NCBI RefSeq assembly: GCF_900163625.1
Contig: NZ_FUIE01000057.1
Location: forward strand, 1 to 64,000
Origin: Brevundimonas diminuta 3F5N
GTDB taxonomy: Bacteria > Pseudomonadota > Alphaproteobacteria > Caulobacterales > Caulobacteraceae
DNA: 64,000 nt
Direction of reading: 5' to 3'
Part shown: in pieces, positions 25,908 to 31,358 of the stretch
Layout of the letters: each line of letters opens with the position of its first letter
Position numbering within the stretch: the first letter of the stretch is position 1
Notes under the pieces: generated by a model
What the model was told of the DNA's origin: nothing
The model's database searches: none
What the model saw: the letters and a program-made list of their open reading frames with translations, nothing else
Program-made: the position numbers and the translations under genes

Positions 25908-28055
25908 TCACCCCGCGTGCAGTTCCTGCTTCACGCGCTCGGCCAGGGTCTTGATGTCCAGCGGTTTGGGCAGGAAGGACACCCCGACCTCGTCCTGCAA
26001 CAGGTCCGAGAAGTCGCTTTCGGCGTAACCCGAAATGAACATGACCGGGGCGTCGCCGAGGAAGGGCCGCGCCTTTCTCAGCAGCGACGGCCCGTCCAGA
26101 CCCGGCATGATGACGTCCGAGATGAGCATGTCGATCTGGCCCGCCCATTCCTCGGCCAGGATCAGGGCCTCCTCGCCGTCAGCGGCCTCGATCACCTCAT
26201 AGCCGCGCTGGCGCAGCAGGCGGGCGGCGATGCCGCGCACGGCCGCCTCGTCCTCAACGAACAGGATGCGGCCCGCGCCCGACAGGTCGCGCGGCGCCTT
26301 GACGACCTTCTCAACCACGGGGGCCTCGACCAGCTCCTCGGCCGTGGCGGCGGGCAGAAAGATGCGGAAGGCGGCCCCCGCGTTTTCCAGATTGGCGACC
26401 GTGATATGGCCGCCCGCCTGCTGGGCGATGCCGTAGACGGTGGCCAGGCCCATGCCCGTCCCCTCGTTCACCGCCTTGGTGGTGAAGAAGGGCTCAAAAA
26501 TCTTGTCCAGCAGCGCCGTCGGCACGCCGGGGCCGGTGTCCGACACCTCGATCAGGGCGACCTCATCCGTCGCCTCGCGCCAGCCCAGGTCGCGCGCCTG
26601 GGCGCCCGTCAGGCGGCGGGTGCGGATGGTGACGACGCCCGCGCCCGGTTCGACCACGCCGCGCATGGCGTCGCGGGCGTTGACAGCCAGGTTCATCACC
26701 GCCGTCTCCAACTGGCTCTTGTCGGCCAGCACCAGCGGCAGGTCGCGGCCGTAGTCGGTCTCCAGCCGCACGTCCTCGCGCAGCAGGCGGCGCAGCAGCA
26801 CCGCGAACTCGCCGACCAGTTCGCCCAGGTCCAGCCGCTCGCGCCGCACCGTCGACTTGCGCGAGAAGGCCAGCAGCTTGCGCACCAGATCGGCGGCGCG
26901 GATGGCCGTCTGGCGGATTTCGTTCAGCCCCTCATAGGAGGGATCGCCGACCGGGTGCCGCTCCAGCAGGCCCGACAGTTGCAGCTGGATGGCCGTCAGC
27001 AGGTTGTTGAAGTCGTGCGCCACCCCGCCCGCCAGCTGGCCCACGGCCTGCATCTTCTGGGCCTGCGACAGCTGCAGCTCCATCGACTTCTGCGCCGCCA
27101 CATCGAACAACCAGACGCGGCGCTTGTCGCCTTCCAGCGCGACATAGAGGTGCAGTTGCCGATCCGGGTGGGCGCGGGCGATCAGCTCGATCGGGCCGGA
27201 CGATCCGGCCTCCAGCTTGGTTCTGGCCTCGGCCACGCCGGCCGGGTCGAACAGATGGCCGAAGGCCGCGTCGCCCGAGGCCGCCGGGCCGGTCAGCAAG
27301 GCCAGCGCCGCGTTGGGCTCCTCGACCCGGCCCGCGAACAGGTCTTCGCCGCCGATCACCGCCGAACCGAAGGGCGCGCCGGCGGCCATGGCGCGCGCCT
27401 CGCCCGTCGGGGCGAGGGGTTGGGGCGCGGCGGGCGCGCTCGGGGCCAGCGGCAGAACGGCTTCGGGCGCGGCGCGAACCAGGAAGCGCCCCTCCCCCGC
27501 CTGACCGATCAGCACCTCGATCTCACGCGCGCCGATCTGGACGATGGCGCGGCCCTGATGCCCTCCGCGCGCCTGGGCGAAGGCCATGTAGAGGGCTTGC
27601 GCCGACTTGCCGCCCCCCTTGCCGGCTCTGGGCAGGGTGGTGACGGTCCCGTTTTCCTCGGCCCAGGCGGCGTTGTAGGCGAGCACCTGACCCGACGGCT
27701 GCACCAGGGCGGCAGGCTCGGCCATGGCGTCCAGCATCTCGACCGCCGCATCGCCCGAGGCGGGCCGCCGCTCGGACCGGCCGAAGGCGGACAGCCAGAT
27801 CAGCGCCGTCGCCCCCGCCGCGAAGATCAGGATCAGCCCCGGCGCGGTGAAGGCGCTGGCGCGGAACGCCGGATAGGCGATGGCCGCGATCGCCAGGGCG
27901 AAGCCGACCGCCATCACGACCAGCCACGGGTCAAAGCGCGGACGGCGCGCGGCGCGGGCCTTCTGGCGGTCTTGCGGTCGGGAAATGGTCATGGCGTCTC
28001 GCCCGCGCGAATCAGGGTTCGTCAGCATACGCCGTTCCTCCGCCGCCGCCTTCAT
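25908..28055 (-). CDS. cckA: Cell-cycle hybrid histidine kinase CckA
   Basis: CckA phosphorylates ChpT, which passes phosphate to CtrA and CpdR in Caulobacterales. The 715 residues have two N-terminal transmembrane segments (about 45-90), a PAS-like sensory region (about 105-325), HisKA with [20 protein letters not shown] (H347), HATPase ([30 protein letters not shown]) and a C-terminal receiver ([36 protein letters not shown]). The DHp helix and the stretch [20 protein letters not shown] match Caulobacter CckA almost word for word. The start overlaps the flhB stop as ATGA; an alternative ATG lies at 27992. Confidence 0.95.
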
Positions 28056-29128
28056 CGCCGCTTCCTCTGCTGCATGACGAAGCCGATGACCTTGGCCGCC
28101 GCCTCGAAGTGGTCGCGCGGGATGATGTCGTCCACCTCGACCGCCGCATAGAGGGCGCGGGCCAGGGGCACGTTCTCGACAACGGGCACATTGTGCTCCC
28201 TGGCCACCTCGCGGATGCGCAAGGCCAGGGCGTCGACGCCCTTGGCCACGCAGACCGGCGCGCCGTCGCCTTGGTCCGGCTCATAGCGTAGGGCGACCGA
28301 ATAGTGAGTCGGGTTGGTGATGATGACGGTGGCGTCGGGCACGGCCTGCATCATCCGCTGACGGCCGCGCTGCATACGGATCTGGCGCAGCTTGGCCTTG
28401 ACGTGCGGGTCGCCGTCGGACTGCTTGAAGTCTTCCTTCAGCTCTTCCTTGGTCATCCGCATCCGCTTGGCGAAGCGTATGCGCTGCCACAGGTAGTCGG
28501 CCCCCGCCGTCAGCGCCAGGAAGACCAGGGCCGACACCATCAGCGCCAGCGCCAGATCGCGCGCGAACGGCAGGATCATCGCCGGGCTCATGGCCGCCAG
28601 GTTCTCCAGCTCGCGCGTATGCGGCTTCAGCACCATCCAGCAGACGGCGCCGATGGCGACCAGTTTGATGAAGGTCTTGAGGAACTGCACCAGGCCGTCC
28701 GGGCCGAAGATGCGCTTGATCCCTTCCAGCGGGCTCACCTTCGACCATTTGGGCTTGATCTTATCGGCGGTGAAGATGAGGCCCGACTGAGCCAGATTGC
28801 CGCCGACCCCGCCCAGGATGACGGCGAACATCAGGGCCGCCAGAAAGGGCGCGGCGGCCCAGACAGCCTGCATCCCGATCTCGACGCCGGCGCCAGCCTC
28901 CAGGCCTCCGATCATGGCGTGCGGTTGGGCCAGAAAGGGGGTCAGTCCCTCGGCGATCTGGGTCGAGAACCAGCCGCCGCCCGCCAGCAGCACCCCTGCC
29001 GCGCCCGCCAGCGACAGCGCCGCCGCCACGTCCGGCGACTTGGCGACGTCGCCCTTTTTCCGCGCCTCTTCGAGTTTTCGCGGGGTGGCGTCTTCTGTTT
29101 TCGACTCGGGATCGGGGCCGTCAGCCAA
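28052..29128 (-). CDS. flhB: Flagellar export gate protein FlhB
   Basis: FlhB is part of the membrane export gate and switches substrate class from rod/hook to filament. The 358 residues begin with DPESKTEDATPRKLEEARKKGD, continue with four transmembrane helices, and end in a cytoplasmic domain containing the autocleavage motif NPTH (about 272) within ITNPTHYSVAL. The C-terminus ([19 protein letters not shown]) is typical. It overlaps fliR upstream by 8 bp and cckA downstream by 4 bp, indicating one translationally coupled operon. Confidence 0.97.
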   Translation of the reverse strand: MADGPDPESKTEDATPRKLEEARKKGDVAKSPDVAAALSLAGAAGVLLAGGGWFSTQIAEGLTPFLAQPHAMIGGLEAGAGVEIGMQAVWAAAPFLAALMFAVILGGVGGNLAQSGLIFTADKIKPKWSKVSPLEGIKRIFGPDGLVQFLKTFIKLVAIGAVCWMVLKPHTRELENLAAMSPAMILPFARDLALALMVSALVFLALTAGADYLWQRIRFAKRMRMTKEELKEDFKQSDGDPHVKAKLRQIRMQRGRQRMMQAVPDATVIITNPTHYSVALRYEPDQGDGAPVCVAKGVDALALRIREVAREHNVPVVENVPLARALYAAVEVDDIIPRDHFEAAAKVIGFVMQQRKRR

Positions 29129-29891
29129 CGGCGCCTCCCGTGAAGAAGGCCGCCACCGAACGGTAGCGGTCGATGAAGACGGTCCCCACCACGCCCAGGC
29201 TGAGCGCGAACACCGACAGGCCCAGGATGACGCTCAAGGGCGCGGCGGCGAAATAGACCTGGAAGCTGGGCATGACCCGCGCCACCAGCCCCGAGGCCAG
29301 GTTGAAGATCAGGGCGAACACCAGCACGGGCGCCGCCAGTTGCACCCCCAGCATGAAGCTCTGGCTCAGAGTCTTCACCGCCATCGTCGTGAAGTCCGAG
29401 ACGATCAACGGCTTGGCCGGGGCGATGGCCTCATACGACCCGACCATGCCGCCGATGAACAGGTGGTGGGTGTTGGTGGCGAACACCAGCGTCACCCCCA
29501 GCAGCATGAGGAAGGCCGACAGGGTCGTGCCCGGCTGGGCCTGCATGGGATTGGCGGTCTGGGAAAAACCCAGCGTCGTCTGCAGGGAGACGATCTCGCC
29601 CGCCGTGGTCAGGGCGGTCATGAAGCTGCGCAGGATGGCGCCGATGGCCAGGCCGGTCAGCACCTCGCGGATCACCCAGCCGACGGTGGCGCCCAGGGTC
29701 GCAGGCAGGGCCGGCAGGGCGCCGCCCACGATGGGCCACAACGCCAGCGACAGCACCAGGGCCAGCGACAGGCGGACCCTCGGCGGCACATAGGATTCGC
29801 CGAAGCCGGGCAGCATCATCAGGATCGCGCCGACGCGCGCGAAGATCAGCCCACCGGCCCAGACCTGTTCCGCCGTGGCGTAAGGCTCCAT
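29121..29891 (-). CDS. fliR: Flagellar export gate protein FliR
   Basis: A 256-residue inner-membrane protein with about six hydrophobic segments, part of the FliP-FliQ-FliR export pore. Characteristic stretches include ARVGAILMMLPGFGESYVPPRVRL near the start and GEIVSLQTTLGFSQTANP in the middle. Gene order fliQ-fliR-flhB confirms it. The start is 22 bp after the fliQ stop and its end overlaps flhB. Confidence 0.96.
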   Translation of the reverse strand: MEPYATAEQVWAGGLIFARVGAILMMLPGFGESYVPPRVRLSLALVLSLALWPIVGGALPALPATLGATVGWVIREVLTGLAIGAILRSFMTALTTAGEIVSLQTTLGFSQTANPMQAQPGTTLSAFLMLLGVTLVFATNTHHLFIGGMVGSYEAIAPAKPLIVSDFTTMAVKTLSQSFMLGVQLAAPVLVFALIFNLASGLVARVMPSFQVYFAAAPLSVILGLSVFALSLGVVGTVFIDRYRSVAAFFTGGAVG

Positions 29892-29913
29892 GTTCCTGCC
29901 CTACAACCCCGCC

Positions 29914-30177
29914 CTACATGCCCGCGATGCGAGCGGCGATCTCGCGCATGAAGCCGCCCAGCAGGGCGCCCATCAGCGGCAGGAACAGCAGCAACGACAC
30001 GAAGATGGCGATGATCTTGGGCGCATAGACCAGGGTCTGCTCCTGGATCTGCGTCAGGGCCTGGAACAGGCCGATGGCCACGCCGACAACCAGGGCCACG
30101 ATCAGGGCCGGCAGGCACAGCTGGATCGTCAGCCACAGGGCGTCGCGACCCACATCCAGAACTTCCGCGCCGCTCAT
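29914..30177 (-). CDS. fliQ: Flagellar export gate protein FliQ
   Basis: An 87-residue protein with two long transmembrane helices (about 15-40 and 52-75), including LPALIVALVVGVAIGLFQALTQ and the conserved QEQTLVYAPKIIAIF. The open frame extends further upstream but ATG 30177 gives the family length. It is the first gene of the fliQ-fliR-flhB-cckA run. A CtrA box lies 66 bp upstream. Confidence 0.95.
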   Translation of the reverse strand: MSGAEVLDVGRDALWLTIQLCLPALIVALVVGVAIGLFQALTQIQEQTLVYAPKIIAIFVSLLLFLPLMGALLGGFMREIAARIAGM

Positions 30178-30242
30178 CGCCGATCCCCGAGACGCCCCGA
30201 ACACACGCGCGGGACAGTGGGCAGAAAATGCCGACAGGATGG

Positions 30243-30257
30243 TTAACGCGACGTTAG
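30243..30257 (-). promoter_or_regulatory. CtrA box upstream of fliQ
   Basis: On the minus strand the sequence is CTAA-CGTCGCG-TTAA followed by CCAT: 7-bp spacing and one mismatch to TTAA-N7-TTAA, with the preferred TTAACCAT half site. It lies 66 bp before the fliQ ATG, the normal place for a CtrA-activated class II flagellar promoter. Confidence 0.7.
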
Positions 30258-30368
30258 GACGATGGAATGAGACCGATGTTCCGGTCGATGCGGTTTCACG
30301 TGATTGACAACAGCGGCGACTAGACGAACGTTTTCGGCCTCCCCCGATCAACGCCTGAAGGATGCCTC

Positions 30369-31358
30369 ATGAAACCGTTCCTGCGTCTCGCCTCCGTCCT
30401 GATGGTCGCGGCCTCGGCCTCACTGGTCGCCGCGTGCGACAACAAGGCGTCGGAGCCGGCTGAGACGGCGGCGGCCCCCGCGGCGGCGAACGAAGCGGCG
30501 GGCGCGTTCGACGTGAACAGCGTGGCGCTGTCGACCGCTAGCCTGGGCGACTTCCCCTATCTGCGCCTGCCCGACGGCTACAAGCCGCAGAACAGCGAAA
30601 CGCACGACTTCGCCGACTTCCCCTTCTGGACCGGCGCCGGCTTCCAGATGGTCGAAGGCCGCGTCCACCAGACCCAGATCACCAACGACAGCGGCAAGAG
30701 CTTCTCGCGGCTGGAGCTGCTGCGAAACATGGAGCACGCGCTGAAGGAGGCGGGCGCCGTTCGCATCTTCGACGGCCAGATTCCCAATGAAGCCGCCCAC
30801 GCCTTGCCCGAGGCGGTGCAGATGGCGGCCCTGAACGGCATCGGCGACATCTACAACAACCCGTCGCAGACCTGGATCATCCGACAGGCTGACCGCACCG
30901 TCTGGGTTCACCTCTATGTCGGCAGCGCGCAAGGCGCGATGGCGGTGGCCGAGGTCAAGGCCCTGGCGCCGACCGCCGGCCTGCTGCCAGCCAGCGAACT
31001 GGCGCGCAAGATCGCCGCGGACGGCCGCGTCGCCGTGCCGGTCGAGTTCGCACTGGACAAGGCCGACATCCTGGATGTCTCGCGCCCTCAGGTCGACGCC
31101 GTGGCCCAACTGCTGAAGGGTGACGCCGCCCTGCGCCTGTCCGTCGAGGGGCACACCGACAACACCGGCGCCCCGGCCCGCAACCGTCCCCTGTCCGAGG
31201 AACGCGCCCGCGCCGTGGTCGCCGCCCTGACGCAGCAGGGGATCGACGCCAAGCGGCTGGAGGCCAAGGGCTTCGGCGCCGACAAGCCGGTGGCCGACAA
31301 CGCCAGCGACGAGGGCCGCGCCCGCAACCGCCGCGTCGAACTGGTCCGCCTGTCCTGA
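30369..31358 (+). CDS. OmpA-family lipoprotein
   Basis: A 329-residue outer-membrane lipoprotein (lipobox VAAC, C23). Residues 24-45 are an Ala/Glu-rich linker. The middle region (about 50-205) is unrecognised, with YLRLPDGYKPQNSETHDF and VEGRVHQTQIT. The C-terminal 115 residues form an OmpA peptidoglycan-binding domain: VEFALDKADILDVSRPQVD, VEGHTDNTGAPARNRPLS, GFGADKPVADNASDEGRARN-RRVEL. It probably links the outer membrane to the cell wall. It is divergent from fliQ across a region holding the CtrA box, which might influence both genes. Confidence 0.88.
   Translation: MKPFLRLASVLMVAASASLVAACDNKASEPAETAAAPAAANEAAGAFDVNSVALSTASLGDFPYLRLPDGYKPQNSETHDFADFPFWTGAGFQMVEGRVHQTQITNDSGKSFSRLELLRNMEHALKEAGAVRIFDGQIPNEAAHALPEAVQMAALNGIGDIYNNPSQTWIIRQADRTVWVHLYVGSAQGAMAVAEVKALAPTAGLLPASELARKIAADGRVAVPVEFALDKADILDVSRPQVDAVAQLLKGDAALRLSVEGHTDNTGAPARNRPLSEERARAVVAALTQQGIDAKRLEAKGFGADKPVADNASDEGRARNRRVELVRLS

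Follow-up and report, generated by a model that had tools for sequence, protein, structure and literature searches.

In Caulobacter crescentus, fliQ is transcribed from a class II flagellar promoter that CtrA activates at a footprinted site, CTAACGCCCTGTTAACCA (PMC3751295, Table 2), and the ctrA gene has two promoters of its own, P1 and P2. In Brevundimonas subvibrioides, a regulon study names cckA as a member of both the GcrA and the CcrM regulon, lists it in the top 50 genes by conservation of GANTC motifs, and states that fliQ, fliR and flhB, which are GcrA targets in C. crescentus, are not GcrA-regulated there (PMC7987155). The idea that CtrA governs its own kinase gene has been put forward for a different taxonomic order, the Rhodobacterales, where CtrA control of cckA was predicted from sites before the cell-cycle genes (PMC2877005). 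Here, we analyzed a stretch of 64,000 nucleotides from Brevundimonas diminuta 3F5N (the window), in which fliQ, fliR, flhB and cckA lie closely packed, in that order, on the minus strand. An earlier note on this DNA had proposed that a CtrA box before fliQ lets CtrA drive cckA through the flagellar operon; most components of that proposed loop are already known.

The features on which the comparison depends are:

25908..27992, minus strand: cckA, from the start favored by relatives (open reading frame (ORF) up to 28055; Pfam, NCBIfam and relatives)
28008..28014, minus strand: TGATTCG, candidate CcrM (GANTC) site in the extended GcrA form YGAKTCK (motif and conservation)
28024..28029, minus strand: -10-like TATGCT of a putative cckA promoter (templates chosen after the sequences had been seen)
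28052..29128, minus strand: flhB, with a TTG start at 29128 (ORF, Pfam and NCBIfam)
29121..29891, minus strand: fliR (ORF, Pfam and NCBIfam)
29914..30177, minus strand: fliQ (ORF, Pfam and NCBIfam)
30239..30257, minus strand: CtrA-type box CTAACGTCGCGTTAACCAT before fliQ, core 30243-30257 (motif, conservation and the footprinted C. crescentus counterpart)

We consider it about 70% probable that two promoters serve these genes, i.e., PfliQ, activated by CtrA, and a promoter belonging to cckA itself that responds to methylation through GcrA and CcrM. The 59 bases between the flhB stop and the cckA ATG at 27992 hold a conserved promoter-like element that the earlier note overlooked. The sequence preceding that ATG reads CGTATGCTGACGAACCCTGATTCGCG, with GATTC at 28013-28009, approximately +5 relative to the predicted transcription start. 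A GANTC site was present between -110 and -20 of the CckA anchor in all 104 Brevundimonas loci, comprising 73 with linked flhB and cckA and 31 others. With fixed 80-bp windows, it was found at this position in 72/73 and 30/31 loci, respectively, whereas neighboring windows held one in only 4, 1, 7, 8 and 3 of the 73 linked loci, and in 9/30, 11/30 and then 4, 1 and 5 of 31 separated loci. The higher upstream counts in the latter reflect a second site, as paired GANTC sites 44-54 bp apart precede cckA in 24/31 separated loci (among L160-L190; L and G numbers denote loci and genomes) and in 0/73 linked loci. The extended form, on the forward strand only, was found in 65/73 linked and 28/31 other loci, and an in-frame ATG or GTG follows GANTC by 15-31 nt in 102/104. 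Conserved, extended in form and close to the start, the site has motif features expected of a GcrA/CcrM-regulated promoter.

A -10-like hexamer (at least 5/6 matches) accompanies the site in 84/102 loci, compared with 86/730 control windows inside flhB, and 71 of the 84 hexamers sit 15-16 nt before GANTC. The combination TATGMT-N10-GATTCG occurs a single time in the 3.25-Mb genome; the 64-kb window has 67 GANTC sites in total, seven of them extended. A separate strong cckA promoter without read-through had been named beforehand as a result that would count against the CtrA-CckA loop: a separate, putative promoter element is indeed present here.

The start codon of cckA bears on the extent of this junction. 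The flhB and cckA ORFs overlap by ATGA at 28055-28052, and the earlier note listed this 4-bp overlap. Only 4/73 loci have an ATGA in frame with cckA, and relatives back the ATG at 27992-27990, so that cckA probably does not start at ATGA. The 4/73 count likewise led us to reject ATGA-mediated translational coupling between flhB and cckA; many relatives, moreover, have stops or frame shifts between ATGA and the supported start. The remaining packing that had been described is real, i.e., 22 bp between fliQ and fliR, an 8-bp overlap of fliR and flhB if flhB begins at TTG 29128, and ATGA as an overlap of ORFs. Annotators of the B. diminuta group should be wary of the ATGA start. The gene names themselves were upheld by Pfam and NCBIfam, the latter naming FliQ, FliR, FlhB and CckA; CckA scored above the equivalog cut-off of NF046026 (1092 bits compared with 1000), with a match starting at residue 41, and carries the three Pfam domains HisKA, HATPase_c and receiver. 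The closest named relative found was B. diminuta ATCC 11568 (99% in the best CckA segment). A superoxide dismutase gene lies farther downstream, at 25157-24543.

The regulators that this architecture calls for have candidates in the genome. Two matches to the GcrA family (PF07750) were found, at G000:C46:2132-2602 and G000:C89:86587-87030, and the RAMA domain scored above its cut-off once, in a protein that, from this domain and its ORF length, we infer to be CcrM-like. ctrA was found by a match of 87% over 127 residues and has four GANTC sites 133-165 bp upstream. As side observations, the Pfam GcrA model also scored above its cut-off in Sulfolobus acidocaldarius, a member of the control set. 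The weaker GcrA-family match (G000:C89:86587-87030) shares its contig with a second, distant FlhB homologue (G000:C89:9898-10914, 35% identity); second FlhB copies occur in 4/121 genomes, i.e., G000, G007, G069 and G074.

At the other end of the cluster, the earlier note had placed a CtrA box 66 bp ahead of fliQ. We found it 65 bases away, counted from the end of its TTAA (30243) to the fliQ ATG (30177), in the form CTAA-N7-TTAACCAT, which is TTAA-N7-TTAA with one mismatch. From the window by itself the box is weak evidence, with three matches at up to one mismatch against 0.57 expected, and three also reached in 2/100 shuffles; it is conservation that makes it strong. A CtrA box lies within 130 bp of fliQ in 69/73 and 32/32 Brevundimonas loci (101/105), compared with approximately 1.3 expected from Markov shuffles, and the four promoters without a full box retain a TTAAC half. 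No such box was found upstream of fliR (0/105) or flhB (0/105). Beyond Brevundimonas it is rarer, being present in 10/20 other Caulobacteraceae loci and 0/24 outgroup loci. Opposite the C. crescentus footprint the window reads CTAACGTCGCGTTAACCA; the gene is identical and CTAA-N7-TTAACCA is common to both (PMC3751295), although the species differs and Brevundimonas has a near-invariant dyad after the box. Because the box is conserved and matches the footprinted site, there is good support for CtrA input to fliQ, and with a ctrA gene in the genome the locus is a candidate CtrA-activated class II flagellar operon.

That dyad is:

30219..30233, minus strand: CGGCATTTTCTGCCC, near-invariant, at the fliQ -10 region, with dyad GGCA-N5-TGCC (105 aligned promoters)

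In the 105 Brevundimonas fliQ promoters, CGGCATTTTCTGCCC starts 13 bases past the first T of TTAAC, at the expected -10 position. The arrangement of TTAAC, spacer and dyad has a single other case in the genome, between flgB-flgC-fliE and fliO-fliP (L232), where Pfam identified FliE, FliO, FliP and two rod proteins as neighbors; the pattern was not matched in Caulobacter loci L023, L026, L028 and L029. The dyad resembles FlbD ftr sites, and we take it to be possibly an ftr site. At ftr sites in C. crescentus, FlbD acts as a repressor of early flagellar genes (PMC3930126).

Under the two-promoter reading, CtrA~P would bind 30243-30257 at PfliQ, a class II flagellar promoter by its box and its C. 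crescentus counterpart, and switch on fliQ-fliR-flhB. cckA would have its promoter in the flhB-cckA junction (TATGCT 28029-28024, TGATTCG 28014-28008, start codon 27992), where GcrA and sigma70 polymerase would fire according to methylation state, which might act in either direction. Such control would link new CckA to replication-fork passage. Action of GcrA and CcrM at this promoter is suggested by motif, conservation and the published data on B. subvibrioides, which shares with the window both genus and gene (PMC7987155). Some CtrA-driven transcripts may run on into cckA, given the short flhB-cckA spacing and the failure to find a terminator-like site on the minus strand in 27700-30420; this input would be optional and is not conserved.

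Comparison of genomes supports the autonomy of the cckA element. Both genes could be placed, at the thresholds used, in 106 of 121 Brevundimonas genomes searched (15 were omitted). cckA lies within 400 bp after flhB in 68 of these, follows an insert of 1.3-3.5 kb in five and lies elsewhere in 30, with three contig-end cases. Contig ends were judged by hand: 33 genomes were first classed as not linked, and removal of G040, G058 and G119, which have cckA at a contig end, left the 30 that are truly separate. L009 (B. lenta) is an example of cckA lying apart, the 5 kb upstream of the gene lacking flhB. G058 looks linked, as its cckA contig opens with the end of flhB, and its locus L172 is still counted among the 31 separated loci. 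The set of cckA sequences excludes G040 and G119, and that of flhB excludes G040; in G085, approximately 1.9 kb upstream of cckA were covered, so cckA may follow a long insertion there. On the flhB tree, in which L222 (G058) was labeled linked and L221 (G119) separate though a contig-end case, the separate state needs seven changes, at least four of them forced by well-supported branches, and the inserted state needs three. In all five insertions the longest ORF is on the opposite strand; among the insert ORFs scanned, that of L135 is a photolyase-family gene and that of L153 gave a pentapeptide match below the cut-off. If G078 is B. subvibrioides, an opposite-strand gene splits flhB and cckA in that species, whereas in the window they abut. 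Where the genes have parted, the GANTC element is found at cckA and the CtrA box remains at fliQ, and no TTAACC-type CtrA box was found upstream of cckA in the 31 separated loci (1.9-2.5 kb covered, except in the contig-end case). Thus, wherever the gene moves, cckA retains its own putative methylation-site promoter element. By eye, the flhB-cckA gap of L088, L102, L118, L141 and L143 also contains long inverted repeats rich in CTCCCTCCCC / GGGGAGGGAG.

Several points weigh against a GcrA/CcrM promoter at cckA. The -10 templates were picked post hoc, after the sequences had been viewed, and the Brevundimonas loci are related, so that the counts given above are not independent. A generic sigma70 scan of 27700-30420 gave no promoter and no recognizable -35. 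Outside Brevundimonas the enrichment of GANTC is modest, at 18/21 loci against 11.4 expected and 20/26 against 12.9. In B. subvibrioides the extended GcrA motif was found not to be preferred (PMC7987155). Finally, GANTC follows the -10-like hexamer rather than lying between -10 and -35, as it does in the C. crescentus promoters with firing times of 40-60 min (PMC4287350), and we therefore did not class the junction as a promoter of the ctrA P1 type. Separately, several Bradyrhizobium flhB-cckA junctions were seen to hold two or three GANTC sites.

The position of GANTC and the motif-preference result lowered our confidence both in the two-promoter reading, to its stated level, and in a two-input alternative, which we consider unlikely. 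In this alternative, the abutment of flhB and cckA would give cckA both a GcrA/CcrM promoter and late read-through from PfliQ, mirroring ctrA; FlbD would shut off read-through at the ftr-like element once the flagellum is built, and lineages that split the genes would have lost the CtrA part only. The two inputs would then supply CckA in the order in which they supply CtrA. C. crescentus ctrA P1/P2 would be alike in outline, with CtrA input coming after a GcrA/CcrM promoter, but GANTC lies at -29 in P1 (PMC4287350) and at approximately +5 at cckA, and CtrA would reach cckA only by possible read-through.

It is rather improbable that GATTC has been kept for another reason, e.g., as CckA N-terminal codons, as the target of another protein or for the sake of the mRNA. 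The coding test used 102 loci, L092 and L152 being excluded because a start was lacking at the expected distance. In 35/102, in-frame coding is possible, and in several Phenylobacterium-type loci the site lies just past a possible start codon; LexA sites, moreover, can overlap GANTC (PMC7987155). Coding nevertheless fails to explain the 37/102 loci with no in-frame start upstream, the 17 with an intervening stop and the 13 in which the site is outside the GAT frame, the site being certainly noncoding in 54/102, and dependence of cckA on GcrA and CcrM is reported for B. subvibrioides (PMC7987155).

Transcription of cckA mainly from PfliQ, such that CtrA~P drives its own kinase, is a further reading that we consider quite improbable. 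The genes of the window share a strand, are tightly packed and have no terminator-like site on that strand, as expected of one operon, and fliQ has its conserved CtrA box. Linkage is also old, with flhB upstream of cckA in 26/44 outgroup loci and the order fliQ-fliR-flhB-cckA in Bradyrhizobium, Afipia, Pseudovibrio, Devosia and Kordiimonas (loci such as L045-L084); the P. zucineum locus numbers PHZ_c0930-0933 give an identical order (PMC2529317). Against this, linkage is not conserved in the genus as membership of cckA in the fliQ operon would lead one to expect, so that the gene order relied on earlier holds within 400 bp for 68/106 genomes only; in the 30 genomes where cckA is apart, and the five where it lies behind an opposite-strand ORF, it has no CtrA-type box of its own, and it has instead the promoter-like element described above. 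As the outgroup keeps the order with a box in 0/24 fliQ upstream regions, gene order seems independent of CtrA control of fliQ, although another gene may precede fliQ in those loci. We also considered, and rejected, a CtrA box between flhB and cckA (0/73 Brevundimonas loci at up to one mismatch); among outgroup junctions such a box was found in 2/26, L069 (Devosia) and L080 (Kordiimonas).

Published data point the same way. Besides the B. subvibrioides regulons (PMC7987155), cckA expression in Ruegeria KLH11 was unaltered by added CtrA despite CtrA-like sites upstream, and was likewise unaltered by ctrA deletion in R. capsulatus, cited in the same paper, yet CckA protein fell (PMC3692519). A C. 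crescentus fliQ reporter was largely unaffected when a mutation reduced CtrA (PMC3751295), and the fliQ box would therefore respond poorly to small shifts in CtrA. A 2025 paper names a fliQ-fliR-flhB operon without cckA (PMC12421884), and no report that claims or examines joint transcription of cckA and these genes was found in a search that mostly left subscription literature outside. Of the loop first proposed, CtrA input at fliQ stands and read-through is possible, but cckA has its own GANTC element in 104/104 loci and lacks a CtrA-type box in the upstream DNA covered for the 30 separated genomes. The CtrA-CckA loop is unproven and would be at most a secondary input; a minor CtrA contribution in B. 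diminuta is possible.

One further gene adjoins the box:

starts at 30369, plus strand: OmpA-family gene, divergent from fliQ (ORF list)

Although the box sits between divergent genes, and a single CtrA site feeds two divergent promoters in R. sphaeroides (PMC6180460), it is very improbable that it serves the OmpA-family gene instead of fliQ, as this gene was matched in L016 only among named loci, the fliQ box persists without it and the conserved -10-like element is located toward fliQ.

Taken together, these comparisons replace the guess that a flagellar operon lets CtrA drive its kinase with an architecture that can be tested, built on a putative methylation-site promoter. Genomes in which flhB and cckA have separated naturally provide ready-made controls for CtrA read-through. 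If the two-promoter reading is true, CckA production in Brevundimonas would be tied to replication through the GcrA/CcrM system, which also acts on ctrA.

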